Shown one piece after another: positions 1 to 47,855 of a stretch of 64,000 nucleotides of DNA. Source of the DNA: Candidatus Saganbacteria bacterium. GTDB lineage: Bacteria; Margulisbacteria; WOR-1; XYC2-FULL-46-14; XYC2-FULL-37-10. Made by a program: the position numbers and the translations under genes. Numbering within the stretch: position 1 is the first letter of the stretch; every line of letters begins with the position of its first letter. The notes under the pieces are model-generated. The model searched no databases, had not been told where the DNA came from, and saw only the letters and a program-made list of their open reading frames with translations. The stretch spans positions 1 through 64,000 of the forward strand of contig JACRPL010000007.1 in the NCBI GenBank assembly GCA_016223245.1. Reading direction: 5' to 3'.

Positions 1-2
1 AA

Positions 3-8252: not shown

Positions 8253-8909
8253 ATGAGATATTTCTTATGCCTCCTGTCTATTGTTCTTCTAGCAACACAA
8301 GCGTTATCTATGGGGAACAGCCCCGCGGCTCCGGCTAAAAGCAGTTTGAATATGCTTGAAAATTTCGAGGACGGGAATTATGCGAAAGATCCGGAATGGT
8401 GGAATTTTGGGAATATTGACCTATCGATTATCGATAGGCCGGCGCAAGGGAAGCATTCCCTGTCGGTAAAAGGCCGCGCATCGGATTGGTATGTTGGCGG
8501 CATAGGAGTATATCTGCTTGCTCCGGATGCCGATTTTTCAAATTATTCCGGCTTGGAGTTTGATGTATTCGGCAGCGGAGAGAAGAGCGGGACAATAAAG
8601 ATAGAGCTGTATGATGACGATAACGGCAATAACCAGATCGAGGCGGATCCGGGATCGTATGCCCCGCGTTATGACGATAAGTTCATATCCGAATTAAAAG
8701 TGGATTGGAGCGGCCATAAGCATATTGTTATTCCATTTTCCGAGTTTATCGACAACAATCCTGAAGCCGGCGATAACATTTGGAATCCCGCCAAGACAAA
8801 AACTTCGGGAGGACTCCTGCAGATGCAATTCATTTTCCTTGCCGCAAGCAAAACAGGCAATATCGGCCTGGTCCTTGATAATATCGGATTTTATAAAGGC
8901 ACAAAATGA
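8253..8909 (+). CDS. Exported CIA30/CBM11-like jelly-roll protein
   Basis: 218 residues. A signal peptide (RYFLCLLSIVLLATQALS) is followed by a Pro/Ala linker and one beta-sandwich domain (about 33-216). Pattern: LENFEDGNY start, YSGLEFDVFGSG, IKIELYDDDNGNN, W--HKHIVIPFSEF, IGLVLDNIGFY end. This is the layout of CIA30/galactose-binding-like domains such as CBM11. Likely periplasmic or surface carbohydrate binding; ligand unknown. Overlaps the next gene by 4 nt (ATGA), so translation is coupled. Confidence 0.65.
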   Translation: MRYFLCLLSIVLLATQALSMGNSPAAPAKSSLNMLENFEDGNYAKDPEWWNFGNIDLSIIDRPAQGKHSLSVKGRASDWYVGGIGVYLLAPDADFSNYSGLEFDVFGSGEKSGTIKIELYDDDNGNNQIEADPGSYAPRYDDKFISELKVDWSGHKHIVIPFSEFIDNNPEAGDNIWNPAKTKTSGGLLQMQFIFLAASKTGNIGLVLDNIGFYKGTK

Positions 8910-9817
8910 AGTTTTTTTTTAATAACCTGCGGCTAAATTCACCCTTCGCAGTAGCACTGCTACGGAGAACGGGCGCCGCGGTTCCCATAATTTTATTTAT
9001 TTTTGCAATACCCGTATTCGCTGACATTACCCCATGGGCCGATGTTTGGACCAATGGCGCTTATTATTCGACTAATGGAGAGAACAGCAATTTCCGTGCG
9101 GTGCAATTGCGCTCTGAAGGGCGGTTCGGTTTTAATTTTGGCGAGAGTTCGCCCACAAAACCATATATTGTTTATTATGGATCTTACGGCCAAGACCCGA
9201 ATTATTGGAATAATAATTTAGCAGTTGGCGGCGGCGTAAGATCTATGCCTTTTGTTTCTTTTGAAACTACAAGCTGGGCCCTCGAGTGGATAAGGGATAC
9301 CAAAATTTATGCCGAGATATTAACGCTAAACTTCTTAAAGGGCAAGGCAACAGCCGAAGCGAATGGCGTTAAAACCAATGATTACCGCATAGGCATCGAC
9401 ATCTGGCACGAATGGAACCTCCAAAATGCCAAGGCAAAAGCGCCATGGGCCGAAATGTGGACGAGAATAGATTATAGGAATACGAATTTCTACGACCCAA
9501 TGTCCGGATTAGATAAATTCCAGAACTTCCTTGGCTATTTCCAATTAAAAATAGGAAGACATTTGCCAGGAGGGGTCAGGCCGTATCTTGCATCCTATCT
9601 TACGATCTCCGGATTAAAAAAAGTCTGGCTTAATAATTTGTATTATGGGGCAGGGATCAGGATGGAGCCTTTCCGCGACCAGGAGAATTCGCCGGAACTA
9701 TTAAGGAAATTCAAGATGTATATTGAAGGGTTAAATATTTCATATCTTGCAGAGCTTGATCCGACAAGGCCTGTAACCGACATGAGGTTCGGCATCGAAT
9801 TCACGTACGGGCGATAA
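8906..9817 (+). CDS. Outer-membrane protein resembling the NfrA C-terminal domain
   Basis: 303 residues, starting in the ATGA overlap with the previous gene. Signal peptide core PIILFIFAIPVFA followed by repeated aromatic, even-odd strands (SWALEWIRDTKIYAEI, YRIGIDIWHEWNL, LKKVWLNNLYYGAGIRME) ending TDMRFGIEFTYGR. The pattern recalls the C-terminal domain of phage-N4 receptor NfrA and exopolysaccharide-associated barrels; this match is by eye. Residues 8-27 of the n-region are encoded by an inserted palindromic repeat (8924-8983), so the signal peptide has an abnormally long n-region. Confidence 0.6.
   Translation: MKFFFNNLRLNSPFAVALLRRTGAAVPIILFIFAIPVFADITPWADVWTNGAYYSTNGENSNFRAVQLRSEGRFGFNFGESSPTKPYIVYYGSYGQDPNYWNNNLAVGGGVRSMPFVSFETTSWALEWIRDTKIYAEILTLNFLKGKATAEANGVKTNDYRIGIDIWHEWNLQNAKAKAPWAEMWTRIDYRNTNFYDPMSGLDKFQNFLGYFQLKIGRHLPGGVRPYLASYLTISGLKKVWLNNLYYGAGIRMEPFRDQENSPELLRKFKMYIEGLNISYLAELDPTRPVTDMRFGIEFTYGR
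8924..8983 (+). repeat. Palindromic repeat family A, copy 1, with nested palindrome, in frame in a signal peptide
   Basis: Left arm AACC-T-GCGGC (8924-8933) pairs with right arm GCCGCGGTT (8975-8983), leaving a bulged T. The loop begins TAAAT and holds a second palindrome, GTAGCA-C-TGCTAC (8951-8963), flanked by CCC-TTC and GAA-C-GGG. It is read as codons of the 8906 gene. Confidence 0.7.
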
Positions 9818-28527: not shown

Positions 28528-28990
28528 CTCCCGAATATAAAGACATTAATACAGCGATCCATAATACTATTTCCGCGTATTGCAGTTTTAGGATCAACAT
28601 TAAGACAGCAATAATTTGAATGACCGTTTTGATCTTCCCCCCAATACTTGCCGAGATCACGCCGCCTGTTATGGCCTTGTGGCTGCGCCATCCGGAAATT
28701 AAGAGCTCTCTTGCCGTTATCAATACTACCGGCAGGGCAGGGGCTAATCCCTTTTCAGTAAGCACGATCAAGACGCTTATTACAAGTATCTTGTCGGCAA
28801 TAGGGTCCATTAATTTTCCAAAGTCCGTAACCATGTTAAGCTTTCGGGCAATATATCCGTCAAGCGCGTCAAGCAATGACGCGATCGAAAAAATAATAGC
28901 CGCCCAAAGCCCAAGGTTCTGGTACAAAAGTGAAATTATCAGAGGGATTAATACTATCCTTAATACGGTTAAGAGATTTGGAAGGTTCAA
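28487..28990 (-). CDS. pgsA: CDP-diacylglycerol-glycerol-3-phosphate 3-phosphatidyltransferase
   Basis: 167 residues, integral membrane CDP-alcohol phosphatidyltransferase. The motif D-x2-DG-x2-AR-x8-G-x3-D is present as DALDGYIARKLNMVTDFGKLMDPIAD (read within residues 41-66). About five membrane segments. Makes phosphatidylglycerol phosphate. Starts in the ATGA overlap with rimO. Confidence 0.95.
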   Translation of the reverse strand: MNLPNLLTVLRIVLIPLIISLLYQNLGLWAAIIFSIASLLDALDGYIARKLNMVTDFGKLMDPIADKILVISVLIVLTEKGLAPALPVVLITARELLISGWRSHKAITGGVISASIGGKIKTVIQIIAVLMLILKLQYAEIVLWIAVLMSLYSGVEYIGRRGKTSRG

Positions 28991-30219
28991 GTAGTTTTGC
29001 TGGCGACAAGATCATAAGGCGAAGCATTGGTAACCTTTGCCCTAATTATTTCTCCGACCTTGAAACCAGAACCATTAACTTTTACAGAACAATCGATTTC
29101 CGGAGAATCCATGTAGGTTCGGCCTATATAGCAACCGCCGACAACGCTTTCCAATAATACATCAAATGAATTTCCTATCAATTTTTTGTTCAACTCCAGA
29201 GAAATCTTTTTCTGTAAAGCCATTAATTTATGGAACCTTGAATCTTTTACCTTTTCGGGAACCTGCCCCCTCATATTGTAAGCAGGCGTCCCTTCCTCTT
29301 GACTGTACTTAAATACTCCCAACCTTTCAAATTTCACTTTTTTAACAAAATCTACTAATTCTTCAAAATCACTTTCAGTTTCACCCGGAAACCCTACGAT
29401 GAAACTCGTCCTCAACACCAAATTCGGTATTTCCCTCCTAAGTTTATCTATTAAAGCGACAATTTCGGCACGAGTTATGCGCCGATGCATATTTTTTAAA
29501 ATATTATCACAAATATGCTGCAATGGCAAGTCAAGATACTTTACGATCTTGGATTCATTTTTGATCACATCAATCAATTGCGCACTAACATGTGCAGGGT
29601 GAGCGTACATGACTCTTATCCATTTGATCCCTTCTATTATAACGATCTTTTTTAGCAATTCAGGAAGATCGGGATATGCGGCAGTATCTTGTGCGATCAA
29701 TATTATTTCTTTTACCCCTCGTTTTGCCAGGCCATCTACTTCTTGAATAATATCGAACGATTCCCTGTTTTTTCTTAGGCCTCTTATTGAAGGAATTGTG
29801 CAATATGAGCAATTATTATCGCAGCCTTCGGAGATCTTTACGTATGCGGTCCAAGGAGGAGTCGCTTTTATGCGGGGCAAATAGCTTTCAAAGAGCCCAG
29901 TTGTTTTTATTGTTCCATCAGCTTTTAATTCGCCGGAAACCTGCGAATAAACTTCGCGGTTTCCTTTCTTATCATATTCCAGCAAACATCCAGCAACAAC
30001 AACCTTGGCTCCTCTTCTTTTGTTTTTAATTGCTTCATTTATTGTTTCAATCGATTCTTTACGCGCGGATTTTAGGAATGCGCATGTATTTACAACGATC
30101 AAGTCCGCTTCTTTTTGAATAGTTGTGATCTCATATCCTAATTCAGCGAGTTTTCCCATGAGAACTTCAGAATCGGTCAGATTTTTTGGGCAGCCAAGAG
30201 ATATTATGAAAGCTTTCAT
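28987..30219 (-). CDS. rimO: Ribosomal protein S12 methylthiotransferase RimO, with repeat-encoded insertion
   Basis: 410 residues. Methylthiolates Asp of ribosomal protein S12. N-terminal MTTase domain starts ISLGCPKNLTDSEVLMG with further Cys in VVNTCAFL and VAGCL; radical-SAM cluster CDNNCSYC (CX3CX2C); C-terminal TRAM domain (FDVLLESVVGG...). A palindromic repeat (29935-29964) encodes GNREVYSQVS in the linker between the MTTase and radical-SAM domains. Overlaps yajQ and pgsA by 4 nt each. Confidence 0.95.
   Translation of the reverse strand: MKAFIISLGCPKNLTDSEVLMGKLAELGYEITTIQKEADLIVVNTCAFLKSARKESIETINEAIKNKRRGAKVVVAGCLLEYDKKGNREVYSQVSGELKADGTIKTTGLFESYLPRIKATPPWTAYVKISEGCDNNCSYCTIPSIRGLRKNRESFDIIQEVDGLAKRGVKEIILIAQDTAAYPDLPELLKKIVIIEGIKWIRVMYAHPAHVSAQLIDVIKNESKIVKYLDLPLQHICDNILKNMHRRITRAEIVALIDKLRREIPNLVLRTSFIVGFPGETESDFEELVDFVKKVKFERLGVFKYSQEEGTPAYNMRGQVPEKVKDSRFHKLMALQKKISLELNKKLIGNSFDVLLESVVGGCYIGRTYMDSPEIDCSVKVNGSGFKVGEIIRAKVTNASPYDLVASKTT
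29935..29964 (+). repeat. Palindromic repeat family A, copy 2, in frame in rimO
   Basis: 30 nt: arm GGAAACC-T-GCGAA, loop TAAAC, arm TTCGC-GGTTTCC. The only unpaired arm base is the bulged T. The exact same 30 nt occurs in reverse complement at 47826-47855. Confidence 0.92.
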
Positions 30220-30747: not shown

Positions 30748-30763
30748 TGCCTGCCGGCAGGCA
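30748..30763. repeat. Perfect 16-bp palindrome TGCCTGCCGGCAGGCA, copy 1
   Basis: Lies between yajQ and dxr. With its flank on one side it shares 22 nt with the copy nested at 38299-38314. The sequence would read CLPAGR if translated, a peptide seen in the in-frame copy. Confidence 0.9.
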
Positions 30764-37435: not shown

Positions 37436-38350
37436 TTATGCCCTCTCGGGGGCTGTAAGTTCAAAGACTTTTTTAAATAGCTCTTCATCATGCGAAGAAA
37501 ATTGCACATCGCGCCTTGCCATCGCTTTTTTGGCCGATTGCATAGCATCTTCCAATTTATACGGGATATTGCCGCCGCCCCATGAAAAGGCGGGGACGAA
37601 TTTCTTGTAATATGCCTGACCGAACAAGTTGGCCGCAGGCCCTATTACGCATCCGGTATATATTAATGACCCGATCGATGATTTAGCATGGTCGCCTATC
37701 AAGCAACCCATGAAAGTTTGCCCGGAATCCACAAGCTTTCCGCCAATATAAACCTTTACTCCTGAATAATTGTTCTTTAGATTCGAATTTGTAGTCCCCG
37801 CGCCTAAGTTTACCCATGGGCAAATATACGAATGTCCGATAAATCCATAATGGCCTTTGTTCACATAATCCATAAATATAGAATGGACGATTTCGCCCGC
37901 GATCCTGCAATTCTTTCCTATATATAGAGGGCCTCTTAAAAATGCATGTGGATGGACTATTGTTTTTTCGCCTATGAAAATGGGGCTTTGCGTTGCATCA
38001 ATTACCGCGCATGCCGAAATTACGGAATCTTTGCCGATATGGATATCTTTTTTGTTGATCAATACTGCCGTCTCGTGGACTTTTCCCAATATCTCAGGCC
38101 TCATTATTTTAAAATCGTTTTTCATATCGTCCGAGAGATTTGAAAGCAAGTCCCATGGATATCTTAGCTCTTGATCAAGTGATTTTCTTTTAATATGTTC
38201 CGCAACGGTTGTCGCTCCGCAAATAAGGTCTTCGACTTCCCTGAAATAGGTTAGGGGAAAGAAGTTCTCTTTCTGAAGGGCAACCTGCGAGTGAACCCTG
38301 CCTGCCGGCAGGCACGGCTCGCGGTTCCCCTTTTTCTTATTCTTTGTCAT
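37436..38350 (-). CDS. GlmU-C-like left-handed beta-helix acyl/sugar-nucleotide transferase
   Basis: 304 residues. Resembles the alternate-GlmU family (TIGR03991), with left-handed beta-helix hexapeptides (IHIGKDSVISACAVIDAT, IFIGEKTIVHPHAFLRGP, LYIGKNCRIAGEI) and SYICPWVNLGAGTTNSNLK. The N-terminal nucleotidyltransferase half of GlmU is largely missing. ATG lies in the ATGA overlap with ackA. Residues 8-24 (GNREPCLPAGRVHSQVA) derive from a nested palindromic repeat. Likely acts in cell-wall or surface sugar activation. Confidence 0.8.
   Translation of the reverse strand: MTKNKKKGNREPCLPAGRVHSQVALQKENFFPLTYFREVEDLICGATTVAEHIKRKSLDQELRYPWDLLSNLSDDMKNDFKIMRPEILGKVHETAVLINKKDIHIGKDSVISACAVIDATQSPIFIGEKTIVHPHAFLRGPLYIGKNCRIAGEIVHSIFMDYVNKGHYGFIGHSYICPWVNLGAGTTNSNLKNNYSGVKVYIGGKLVDSGQTFMGCLIGDHAKSSIGSLIYTGCVIGPAANLFGQAYYKKFVPAFSWGGGNIPYKLEDAMQSAKKAMARRDVQFSSHDEELFKKVFELTAPERA
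38282..38326 (+). repeat. Palindromic repeat family A, copy 3, with nested TGCCTGCCGGCAGGCA, in frame
   Basis: Left arm AACC-T-GCGAG (38282-38291), loop start TGAAC, then the 16-bp palindrome at 38299-38314, right arm CTCGCGGTT (38318-38326). It is read on the minus strand as GNRE...SQVA, the same peptide frame as the rimO copy (GNRE...SQVS) with the inner palindrome adding PCLPAGRVH. Confidence 0.9.
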
Positions 38351-46002: not shown

Positions 46003-47311
46003 AGTAAATGTCGAATATTTAACTCGAGTCGAGGGCCACGGGAATATTGTCGTAAATGTAAAAGACGGGAAGCTTGAAACATGCGAACTTCGGATAGTCG
46101 AGTCACCTCGTTTCTTTGAAGGTATGCTCCGAGGGCGATCAATATTTGAGGCCCAGCATATTACATCTCGAATTTGCGGGATATGCGCTTGCGGGCATTC
46201 GCTCGCTTCAATTCAAGCCGCTGAAGATGCGATCGGGTTTACGCCATCTCTTCAAACGATAAAACTTAGAAAATTCCTACTTCACATGGAAAATCTCGAT
46301 AGCCATGTCCTTCATATTTATCTGTTGGTTGCACCGGACCTGCTCGGTGTTAAGAGCTTTGTTCCATTGATAGGATCTCATGAGCAAGTTGTAAGAAGGG
46401 CCCTGCGCATGAAAAAGACATGCAATGATATCTGCGATATTTTAGTTGGACGCCATGTCCATCCAATATCATCGATAGTCGGCGGATTTACAAAGCTTCC
46501 AAAAGAGAAAGATATTGATGCGATGCTCGATCATTTATACAAAATGCGCGCTGATATGAATGAGACGGTCGCGCTCGCCGCAACACTAAAATTTCCGCAG
46601 TTCGAAAGGGACACGGAATATGTCGGGCTTGTAAGCGATGATGCGGAATATCCGATGCTTTCGGGCGATATCGGATCAACAGATGGCGTCAGACTGAAAA
46701 AAGTCGATTATAAAAAAGCGACAAATGAGTTTATTGTTCCCCATTCAAGCGCGAAACATTCAAAATTAGGCAGAGGATCGTTCATGGTTGGAGCGTTGGC
46801 ACGATTTAACCTTAATTCTGCAAAATTACATCCAAAAGCCAAAGAAATTGCAGCCGCGATCGGCCTAAAACCGAAATGCACAAATCCATATTTGAATACC
46901 GCCGCACAACTAGTCGAGAGCGTCCATTCCCTTGAAGATTCGATAAGTATTCTTGAGGATCTAAAGAGAACAGGCGTTAATTACCACGAAGAGATCATTG
47001 TCGGGCTAAATGAAAAAGGGACGATCCCTGTTAAGGCCGGTAATGGCGTCGGGGCAGTTGAAGTCCCGCGCGGGATCTTATACCACAACTATGAAGTCGA
47101 TGATAAGGGGATAATTGTTAATGCGAACTGCATAATACCGACTGGCCAAAATCTGAACAATATCGAGCAGGACATGAAAAAGCTTGTTCCTGAAATATTG
47201 GATAGGACCGACGAAGAAATAACATTGGCGCTTGAAATGCTTGTCCGCGCTTATGACCCATGCATCTCTTGTTCCGCGCATTTCCTGGATGTTAAGTTTG
47301 TTAACCGCTGA
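45989..47311 (+). CDS. hydA: [NiFe] hydrogenase large (alpha) subunit
   Basis: 440 residues. Nickel ligands as N-terminal RICGICACGH (about 51-60) and C-terminal DPCISCSAH, followed by a 9-residue tail FLDVKFVNR that a maturation endopeptidase would remove after His. RVEGHGNI start. Architecture with subunits B, G and D is that of cytosolic bidirectional NADP-linked group 3b enzymes. Overlaps hydD by 14 nt and the protease gene by about 23 nt. Confidence 0.96.
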   Translation: MRNVKVNVEYLTRVEGHGNIVVNVKDGKLETCELRIVESPRFFEGMLRGRSIFEAQHITSRICGICACGHSLASIQAAEDAIGFTPSLQTIKLRKFLLHMENLDSHVLHIYLLVAPDLLGVKSFVPLIGSHEQVVRRALRMKKTCNDICDILVGRHVHPISSIVGGFTKLPKEKDIDAMLDHLYKMRADMNETVALAATLKFPQFERDTEYVGLVSDDAEYPMLSGDIGSTDGVRLKKVDYKKATNEFIVPHSSAKHSKLGRGSFMVGALARFNLNSAKLHPKAKEIAAAIGLKPKCTNPYLNTAAQLVESVHSLEDSISILEDLKRTGVNYHEEIIVGLNEKGTIPVKAGNGVGAVEVPRGILYHNYEVDDKGIIVNANCIIPTGQNLNNIEQDMKKLVPEILDRTDEEITLALEMLVRAYDPCISCSAHFLDVKFVNR

Positions 47312-47783
47312 TGTAAAAAAATTATTTACTTCCGATGATCGCGGGATCACTTTAATAATAACTATAGGGAATAGTTTTCGGTCGGATGATGGAACTGGGC
47401 CTTATATATTTTCAAGATGCGAAATTCGAATTCCTAAATCCGAAACAAGTTCTAAATATACAATAATAAACGCAGAAGATAAGCCTGAAAATATTATAGA
47501 TGAAGCGATAGCGTATAAGCCCGCGAGAACTATTATAATAGATGCGGCAGATTTCGGCGGAAAACCCGGGGAGGCGAGGATAATAGACCAGGAAAATATA
47601 CCAAACACAACTTTAAGTACACACACTTTCCCAATTCCTATAATTGCCAAGATGTTGGAAAAAGATACCGGCTCAAAAGTTGTATTTTTAGGCATTCAAC
47701 CTAAGAAGATCGAGTTTGGCGAAGGATTGTCAGTTGATGTTAAAAAAACTGCAGAGGAAATAATTGCCTGCATTAATAAATAG
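47289..47783 (+). CDS. Hydrogenase maturation protease (HycI/HyaD family)
   Basis: About 164 residues from the ATG at 47289, which overlaps the end of hydA (TTG at 47298 is an alternative; the longer frame to 47232 is within hydA). ITIGNSFRSDDGTGPY supplies the nickel-sensing GN-x4-DDG motif, with IIDAADFGGKPGEARI and STHTFPIPIIAKML following. Cleaves the C-terminal tail of HydA after nickel insertion. Confidence 0.93.
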   Translation: MLSLLTADVKKLFTSDDRGITLIITIGNSFRSDDGTGPYIFSRCEIRIPKSETSSKYTIINAEDKPENIIDEAIAYKPARTIIIDAADFGGKPGEARIIDQENIPNTTLSTHTFPIPIIAKMLEKDTGSKVVFLGIQPKKIEFGEGLSVDVKKTAEEIIACINK

Positions 47784-47817
47784 TTGTTATCCTGCGACTA
47801 AACGTCGCGGCTAACAA
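47784..47817 (+). repeat. Palindromic repeat family A, copy 4
   Basis: Arms TTGTTA-T-CC-T-GCGAC and GTCGC-GG-C-TAACAA around loop TAAAC (47799-47803). Same bulged T and loop as copy 2, but the inner pair is C-G instead of A-T and the outer arm differs on both sides in a complementary way. Confidence 0.9.
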
Positions 47818-47825
47818 AAATCTGA

Positions 47826-47855
47826 GGAAACCGCGAAGTTTATTCGCAGGTTTCC
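47826..47855 (-). repeat. Palindromic repeat family A, copy 5
   Basis: The exact reverse complement of the 30-nt copy in rimO (29935-29964). It faces copy 4 eight bases away, between the protease and hypA genes, so the transcript could form two hairpins. Confidence 0.95.

Follow-up and report, generated by a model that had tools for sequence, protein, structure and literature searches.

The window analysed here, a 64,000-nt stretch of a Candidatus Saganbacteria genome, raises the question of what a recurrent palindrome of about 30 nt with an unpaired stem base represents: a hairpin maintained by selection, or the product of a system that copies it. A sequence-only reading of the window had named five copies, with a shared short loop (TRAAY) and with inner and outer arms that change together on their two sides, and had suggested copying in the manner of REP/RAYT or of Rickettsia palindromic elements (RPEs). 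All five copies are present, among the following features.

8924..8983, plus strand: palindrome with a 36-nt loop insert (pattern and covariance model (CM) match)
28987..30219, minus strand: rimO (30S ribosomal protein S12 methylthiotransferase) with an in-frame palindrome (RimO model 434.7 bits, cut-off 357)
29935..29964, plus strand: short-loop palindrome, in frame within rimO (CM match and ORF translation)
30748..30763, strand not given: solitary copy of a second palindrome family, TGCCTGCCGGCAGGCA, the same family that is nested in the loop at 38282
38282..38326, plus strand: palindrome with a 21-nt loop insert, CCTGCCTGCCGGCAGGCACGG (pattern and CM match)
47784..47817, plus strand: short-loop palindrome, TTGTTA T CC-T-GCGAC TAAAC GTCGC-GG C TAACAA (from the sequence; CM score 48.6 bits)
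47826..47855, minus strand: short-loop palindrome, minus-strand GGAAACC-T-GCGAA TAAAC TTCGC-GGTTTCC (CM score 48.0 bits)

CM matches in the window are exactly five, at 8916, 29930, 38274, 47781 (+) and 47821 (−), and correspond precisely to the five named copies; an Rfam scan of the window returned tRNA-Gln as its sole match. The short loop holds for 29935, 47784 and 47826 but not for 8924 and 38282, where inserts of 36 and 21 nt, themselves palindromic, bring the loops to 41 and 26 nt; the outer arms are good at the three short-loop copies and weak at the other two. Copy 47826 lies on the minus strand (its unpaired base reads A on the plus strand), so that 47784 and 47826 form a convergent pair, whose left member starts right after the stop codon of ORF 47232-47783 and whose right member lies just upstream of a hypA-like ORF (start 47879; named from reading the sequence). 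The rimO palindrome at 29935 encodes the peptide GNREVYSQVS on the minus strand and constitutes a ~24-nt insertion relative to the ortholog in G002, a genome of the same family. ORF 37436-38350 (minus), which reads as a GlmU-like acetyltransferase, has copy 38282 in frame close to its start (the real start codon may lie further in), and copy 8924 is in frame in the N-terminal region of ORF 8906-9817, where palindrome and loop insert together immediately precede a hydrophobic stretch that probably belongs to a signal peptide.

Across the whole genome of the organism (G000; 1,648,252 bases in 24 contigs), the core pattern CCTGCGNNTRAAN{2,32}CGCGG matched 77 times and its reversed-pattern control not once. 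The CM search of the genome and its relatives that the sequence-only reading had proposed returned 111 matches at E ≤ 0.1 in these 1.65 Mb (about 110 copies; 109 in the class-wide count) and copies in 28 of the 30 other genomes of the class. The CM was built, with loops unconstrained, from 49 seed copies, all of which have AA in the loop and nearly all its first T; as perfect inner arms had been a condition for choosing these seeds, we repeated the covariation count with 157 copies, drawn from G000 and its relatives, whose variable positions were free to mispair. The inner-arm covariation held, with 98.7–100% of the variable pairs intact and two to three pair types at each (pair 2, CG 135 / AT 22, 100% paired; pair 4, AT 129 / GC 23 / GT 4, 99.4% paired; pair 5, CG 80 / AT 40 / GC 33, 98.7% paired). 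The second arm form reads GAG/CTC, and most copies have T as the unpaired stem base, a minority having A. The palindrome family is not a chance pattern, and it is neither confined to five copies nor devoid of arm covariation, the two outcomes that the initial reading had named against itself.

The palindromes are dispersed over the genome, occupying roughly 24–48 nt singly and ~66 nt as pairs. Neighbours less than 80 bp apart in G000 amount to 25 pairs (24 convergent, 0 divergent, 1 tandem), where about 0.9 close pairs within 120 bp would be expected by chance, and the spacers are short (gaps of −4 to 33 nt between CM matches). Loops of G000 copies often contain other palindromes, inserts that are rare in relatives, and one palindrome family is nested within another: the second family (TGCCTGCCGGCAGGCA core) occurs as the 21-nt insert and also stands alone at about 20 or more places. 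In all, this second family was noted at 30748-30763 in the window and at about 64 sites in G000, dispersed or nested in loops of the first. G000 further carries a 144-bp MITE with TIRs GAGACYRGTTAG and two convergent palindromes per copy, in about 11 full copies (for example L001, L009, L018, L049 and C1:13068-13211), several with target duplications of about 5 bp (AGATT, ATATT, ATTAT, AAAGG), together with several ~70-bp single-hairpin MITE forms. Between similar MITE copies, the loop of L017 is empty and that of L001 filled with no scar, a difference that slippage deletion could also give.

The conserved foot has GGAA as its commonest tetramer. At positions 5–9, outside this foot, the sequence in 165 own and related copies is specific to each site yet complementary at each site: 451 cells are paired, whereas 2000 permutations with partners taken from other copies gave a mean of 230 and a maximum of 279, and among copies with identical GGAA/TTCC feet 181 are paired versus 87 when permuted (maximum 122). 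The excess fades near position 10 and is present in genic copies too. A mobile unit with fixed arms should not show such outer complementarity; it might come from units inserting into the middle of short palindromic targets, or from a flank being copied so that the stem lengthens (template switching). Insertion of the core into pre-existing terminator hairpins was also considered, and is weakened because genic copies are equally complementary.

About 14 copies in G000 lie within long open frames, in either orientation. Family models confirm eight of the host genes (rimO, lpd, a copA-like ATPase, lipA, mutS, miaB, queA and polA); the other host ORFs, named from reading the sequence, are lpxB- and lnt-like, two helicases and two others. 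Peptides encoded by the palindromes include NREVYSQV, PANKLRG, PRSSFAG and NLRLNVAV. Other genera also have palindromes at about the same site in miaB, lipA and queA, and mutS does likewise in G007. Relative to orthologs (proteins ~60% identical), the insertions measure about 45 nt in queA, 24 in rimO and 36–42 in mutS, and lipA gains 12 nt while lpd is net shorter, such that some genic copies resemble replacements; with sizes running from about 45 nt to net replacement, no single clean insertion unit is established. Genic REPs, often within DNA-repair genes, are known (PMC3733652).

Palindromes occur in 29 of the 31 genomes of the class (WOR-1/Saganbacteria; G000 included), at 1 to 109 copies each, and seven genomes of other classes yielded a single weak CM match. 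Variation between close relatives was followed by locating the genes that flank copies in G014 in its congener G011 (~80% identity) by one chimeric protein search. Both flanks could be aligned for 20 loci of G014. At 18 of these, the syntenic position in G011 is without a palindrome (and without a CM match), one (L199/L194) has a palindrome common to both genomes, and at one (L233) G011 carries a different palindrome instead. No base-resolution empty site was found in the G011/G014 comparison, where intergenic DNA is not alignable at ~80% identity and exact boundaries are not visible. Such differences would arise if G014 had gained palindromes or if G011 had lost them; we favour gain because G000 has 109 copies versus one each in G001 and G002, two genomes of its own family.

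The search for a Y1 transposase suggested by the sequence-only reading was productive. G000 has a single Y1_Tnp (PF01797) gene, at about C6:185361-185744, with one palindrome about 30–40 bp past its 3′ end, one about 10 bp ahead of its start and a further two less than 1 kb away; no tnpB-sized ORF lies in the 3.3 kb around it. The two palindromes nearest this gene share orientation, and in most other loci of its clade the flanking palindromes are convergent. Using a profile of palindrome-linked proteins, we found genes of this clade (clade A) in 13 of the 31 class genomes (17 loci, some genes partial); 43 other genomes from the phylum had none, and the one outside match there, at 65.8 bits, scores like the other Y1 group; named records of clade A are all Margulisiibacteriota/Saganbacteria/WOR-1. 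Clade A is split from the other short-Y1 group by a branch with support 96/90. Every clade-A locus (17/17) has a palindrome within ~120 bp, compared to none of the 18 other Y1 loci within 100 bp, the nearest of these lying at ~790 bp (Fisher P = 2e-10, related loci not being independent). Copy number follows the gene, with a median of 40 palindromes in genomes that have clade A versus 6 in those without it (Mann-Whitney P = 0.0003).

The gene itself does not appear to disperse. G000 has one clade-A gene and other genomes have 1–2 (plus fragments), a close-copy pair being seen only in G009, and the flanks of the gene align among G011, G014, G022 and G028, defining a syntenic locus in four genomes of one family (f7) and two genera. 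At this locus, the flanks of L124 (G014) and L121 (G011) are ~83% identical in DNA while the genes belong to different subclades, possibly because the gene was replaced while its locus stayed fixed. In several transposases, the downstream palindrome seems to supply the codons for the C-terminal tail (KPRR..VAGFQ), and in L119 (G027) a further repeat inside that palindrome adds TSTSLGAALSLPKG to the transposase C-terminus. The second short-Y1 group (HVWFQTKFKK...; L129-L131, L138-L141 and L143) is found in the same genomes without a link to the palindrome.

As judged from its profile matches and motifs, the enzyme is of the IS200/IS605 TnpA type and not of the TnpAREP/RAYT class. It matches PF01797 at 69 bits; two clade proteins scored 64.7 and 66.5 bits against the NCBIfam IS200 model NF033573, passing its cut-off of 55, and the same two scored 47–52 bits against the REP_Tyr_transpos model, below its cut-off of 80, with all 13 aligned clade members matching both the IS200 and the REP-transposase models. 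Compared to structures, the clade profile found ISDra2-type, IS608-type and related TnpA at E = 2e-19 to 5e-14 and E. coli TnpAREP (4er8) at E = 0.23 only. H-V-H is invariant and Y-I-x-x-Q conserved in the aligned proteins, as in TnpA of the IS200 type (HUH and YxxxQ); these motifs correspond to the class-1 Y-x-x-x-Q form of the published table, in which the subclasses with canonical REPs have Y..NP (PMC6006769). In IS608 TnpA, a pocket accommodates an unpaired T and a T of the loop is also read; ISDra2 is similar, and both enzymes make contact with the loop T and with a stem base that is unpaired or mismatched (PMC8266576). A loop T and an unpaired base in the stem are the two constant irregular features of the WOR-1 palindromes. 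The GTAG tag sets TnpAREP apart (PMC8266576), and here GT[AG]G occurs within 20 nt of the foot in 19/168 and 5/168 copies on the two strands and is never the commonest tetramer at any distance. With two defining REP/RAYT features failing, the GT[AG]G tag and a class-2 protein, the system falls outside the described TnpAREP class.

Taken together, the palindromes are most likely small mobile elements, not autonomous themselves, that the one resident IS200/IS605-type Y1 (HUH-tyrosine) transposase has spread. In this model, the palindrome would fold into a hairpin in single-stranded DNA and be bound there by the transposase, which would identify it by its unpaired stem base and its constant TRAA loop; the tyrosine of the transposase would cleave next to the hairpin, and the palindrome would be joined to single-stranded DNA exposed at another site, frequently giving convergent pairs. 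The transposase gene would remain in place between its own palindrome copies, as in a REPtron, and insertions would survive where they are tolerated, in intergenic DNA and, in frame, in variable stretches of proteins. We infer binding, cleavage, transposition, the strand recognised and the direction of each presence/absence difference from sequence, and several observations count against this model. Many copies occur without a detected clade-A gene in G008 (73) and G003 (43), which would call for loss of the gene, gaps in the assembly or a different enzyme; the genome comparisons gave no clean empty site, and some genic copies resemble replacements; on the strand that puts the unpaired base 3′ of the loop, where T17 stands relative to T10 in IS608, that base is A; no conserved guide tetranucleotide like GTAG was found; and part of the amplification in G000 has been as passenger of the TIR-bearing MITE.

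Three other explanations draw on some of the same observations. The near-perfect inner-arm covariation, the complementary outer arms, the siting of copies right after stop codons or between genes (47784, for example) and the one orthologous copy common to G011 and G014 could all reflect functional RNA or DNA hairpins under selection (terminators, mRNA stabilisers or protein-binding sites) whose linkage to the transposase is incidental. We consider this unlikely in view of the genic copies in either orientation, the 18 of 20 G014 copies that lack a syntenic counterpart in the congener, the single copies in G001 and G002 of the same family and the complete linkage to one transposase clade. That the palindromes are instead the end hairpins of complete IS200-type elements that decayed by internal gene loss, rather than being mobilised independently, is quite improbable: the protein is indeed IS200-type, and the convergent palindromes around the gene in most loci share their geometry with solitary pairs in which a short spacer replaces the gene, but no gene remnants lie between paired palindromes in G000 (which has one Y1 match only), the spacers are as short as given above, single copies are common, and the gene keeps a syntenic position in four genomes from a single family, as a dispersing IS would not.

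The MITE copies of G000, with two palindromes each, invite the further explanation that spread occurred mainly through another, TIR-type transposase, the Y1 gene just happening to lie in a palindrome-rich spot. Most palindromes, however, lie outside the MITE, they occur class-wide with unrelated flanks, and clade A is completely linked to them in 13 genomes; this account is highly improbable, and largely refuted. The copying by a REP/RAYT or RPE-like system suggested at the outset stands in part: the Y1 linkage (17/17 versus 0/18), dispersal, convergent pairs, variation between congeners and in-frame genic copies speak for it, and the missing GT[AG]G foot and the IS200-type enzyme against it.

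Like REP/BIME/REPIN elements with their RAYT (TnpAREP; Quentin subclasses 2.2, 2.4, 2.5, 2.7 and 2.8) and the REPtron, the WOR-1 system comprises ~100 short imperfect palindromes, with inverted pairs, an unpaired stem irregularity (group 2), copies on both sides of a single resident Y1 gene, copy numbers that track the gene and some in-frame genic copies, including DNA-repair genes (PMC3733652, PMC8266576, PMC6006769); unlike them, its palindromes lack the GT[AG]G tag and its protein is Y-x-x-x-Q and scores as IS200. With IS200/IS605 elements (IS608, ISDra2) it shares the TnpA type and a hairpin whose stem has an unpaired base and whose loop T is constant (PMC8266576), but it differs in the one gene copy of G000, in a locus syntenic across two genera of f7, in the absence of a tnpB-sized ORF nearby and in hairpins dispersed without the gene and mostly convergent; whole IS200-style elements (ends plus tnpA) as mobile near-identical copies are absent from G000, the close pair in G009 being the only one. 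RPEs are likewise in-frame palindromic repeats that add peptides to many unrelated genes, but at about 150 bp (PMC10969869) they are longer than the single and paired palindromes here, which also have a candidate transposase. CGTC-tagged REPs and TIRtrons (Di Nocera 2013) offer palindromes without a GTAG tag and Y1 genes flanked by other inverted repeats (PMC3733652); the WOR-1 flanking repeats are instead bulged hairpins, of one sequence conserved class-wide, and the same hairpins form the ~100 dispersed copies. In the 2018 classification, which makes no mention of WOR-1/Margulisbacteria, canonical tagged REPs go with class-2 TnpAREP, and class-1 subclasses are ordinary IS200 transposases or lack REPs (PMC6006769). 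We found no account of such palindromes in WOR-1 in a literature search with most subscription journals outside its reach.

Genome comparison thus makes it most likely that WOR-1 has a REPtron-like system on a different branch of the enzyme family. Tentatively, and with somewhat more doubt than belief, a class-1 TnpA may have independently become a resident REPtron-like enzyme, a second origin of the REP way of life without a GTAG guide, with each insertion gaining about 5 nt of site-specific inverted complementarity at the foot; if true, foot complementarity acquired per insertion would add a new property to HUH-mediated movement. An enzyme of class 1 that combines IS608-like hairpins with the REPtron habit would be an intermediate through which to study the path from IS element to resident REP system and the need for a GTAG guide. 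The palindrome is nearly identical throughout the class while most linked enzymes differ (about 44–58% identity), providing a clean pair for binding and cleavage assays, and the in-frame copies in mutS, polA, lipA, rimO and queA represent a further case of palindromes generating protein segments.
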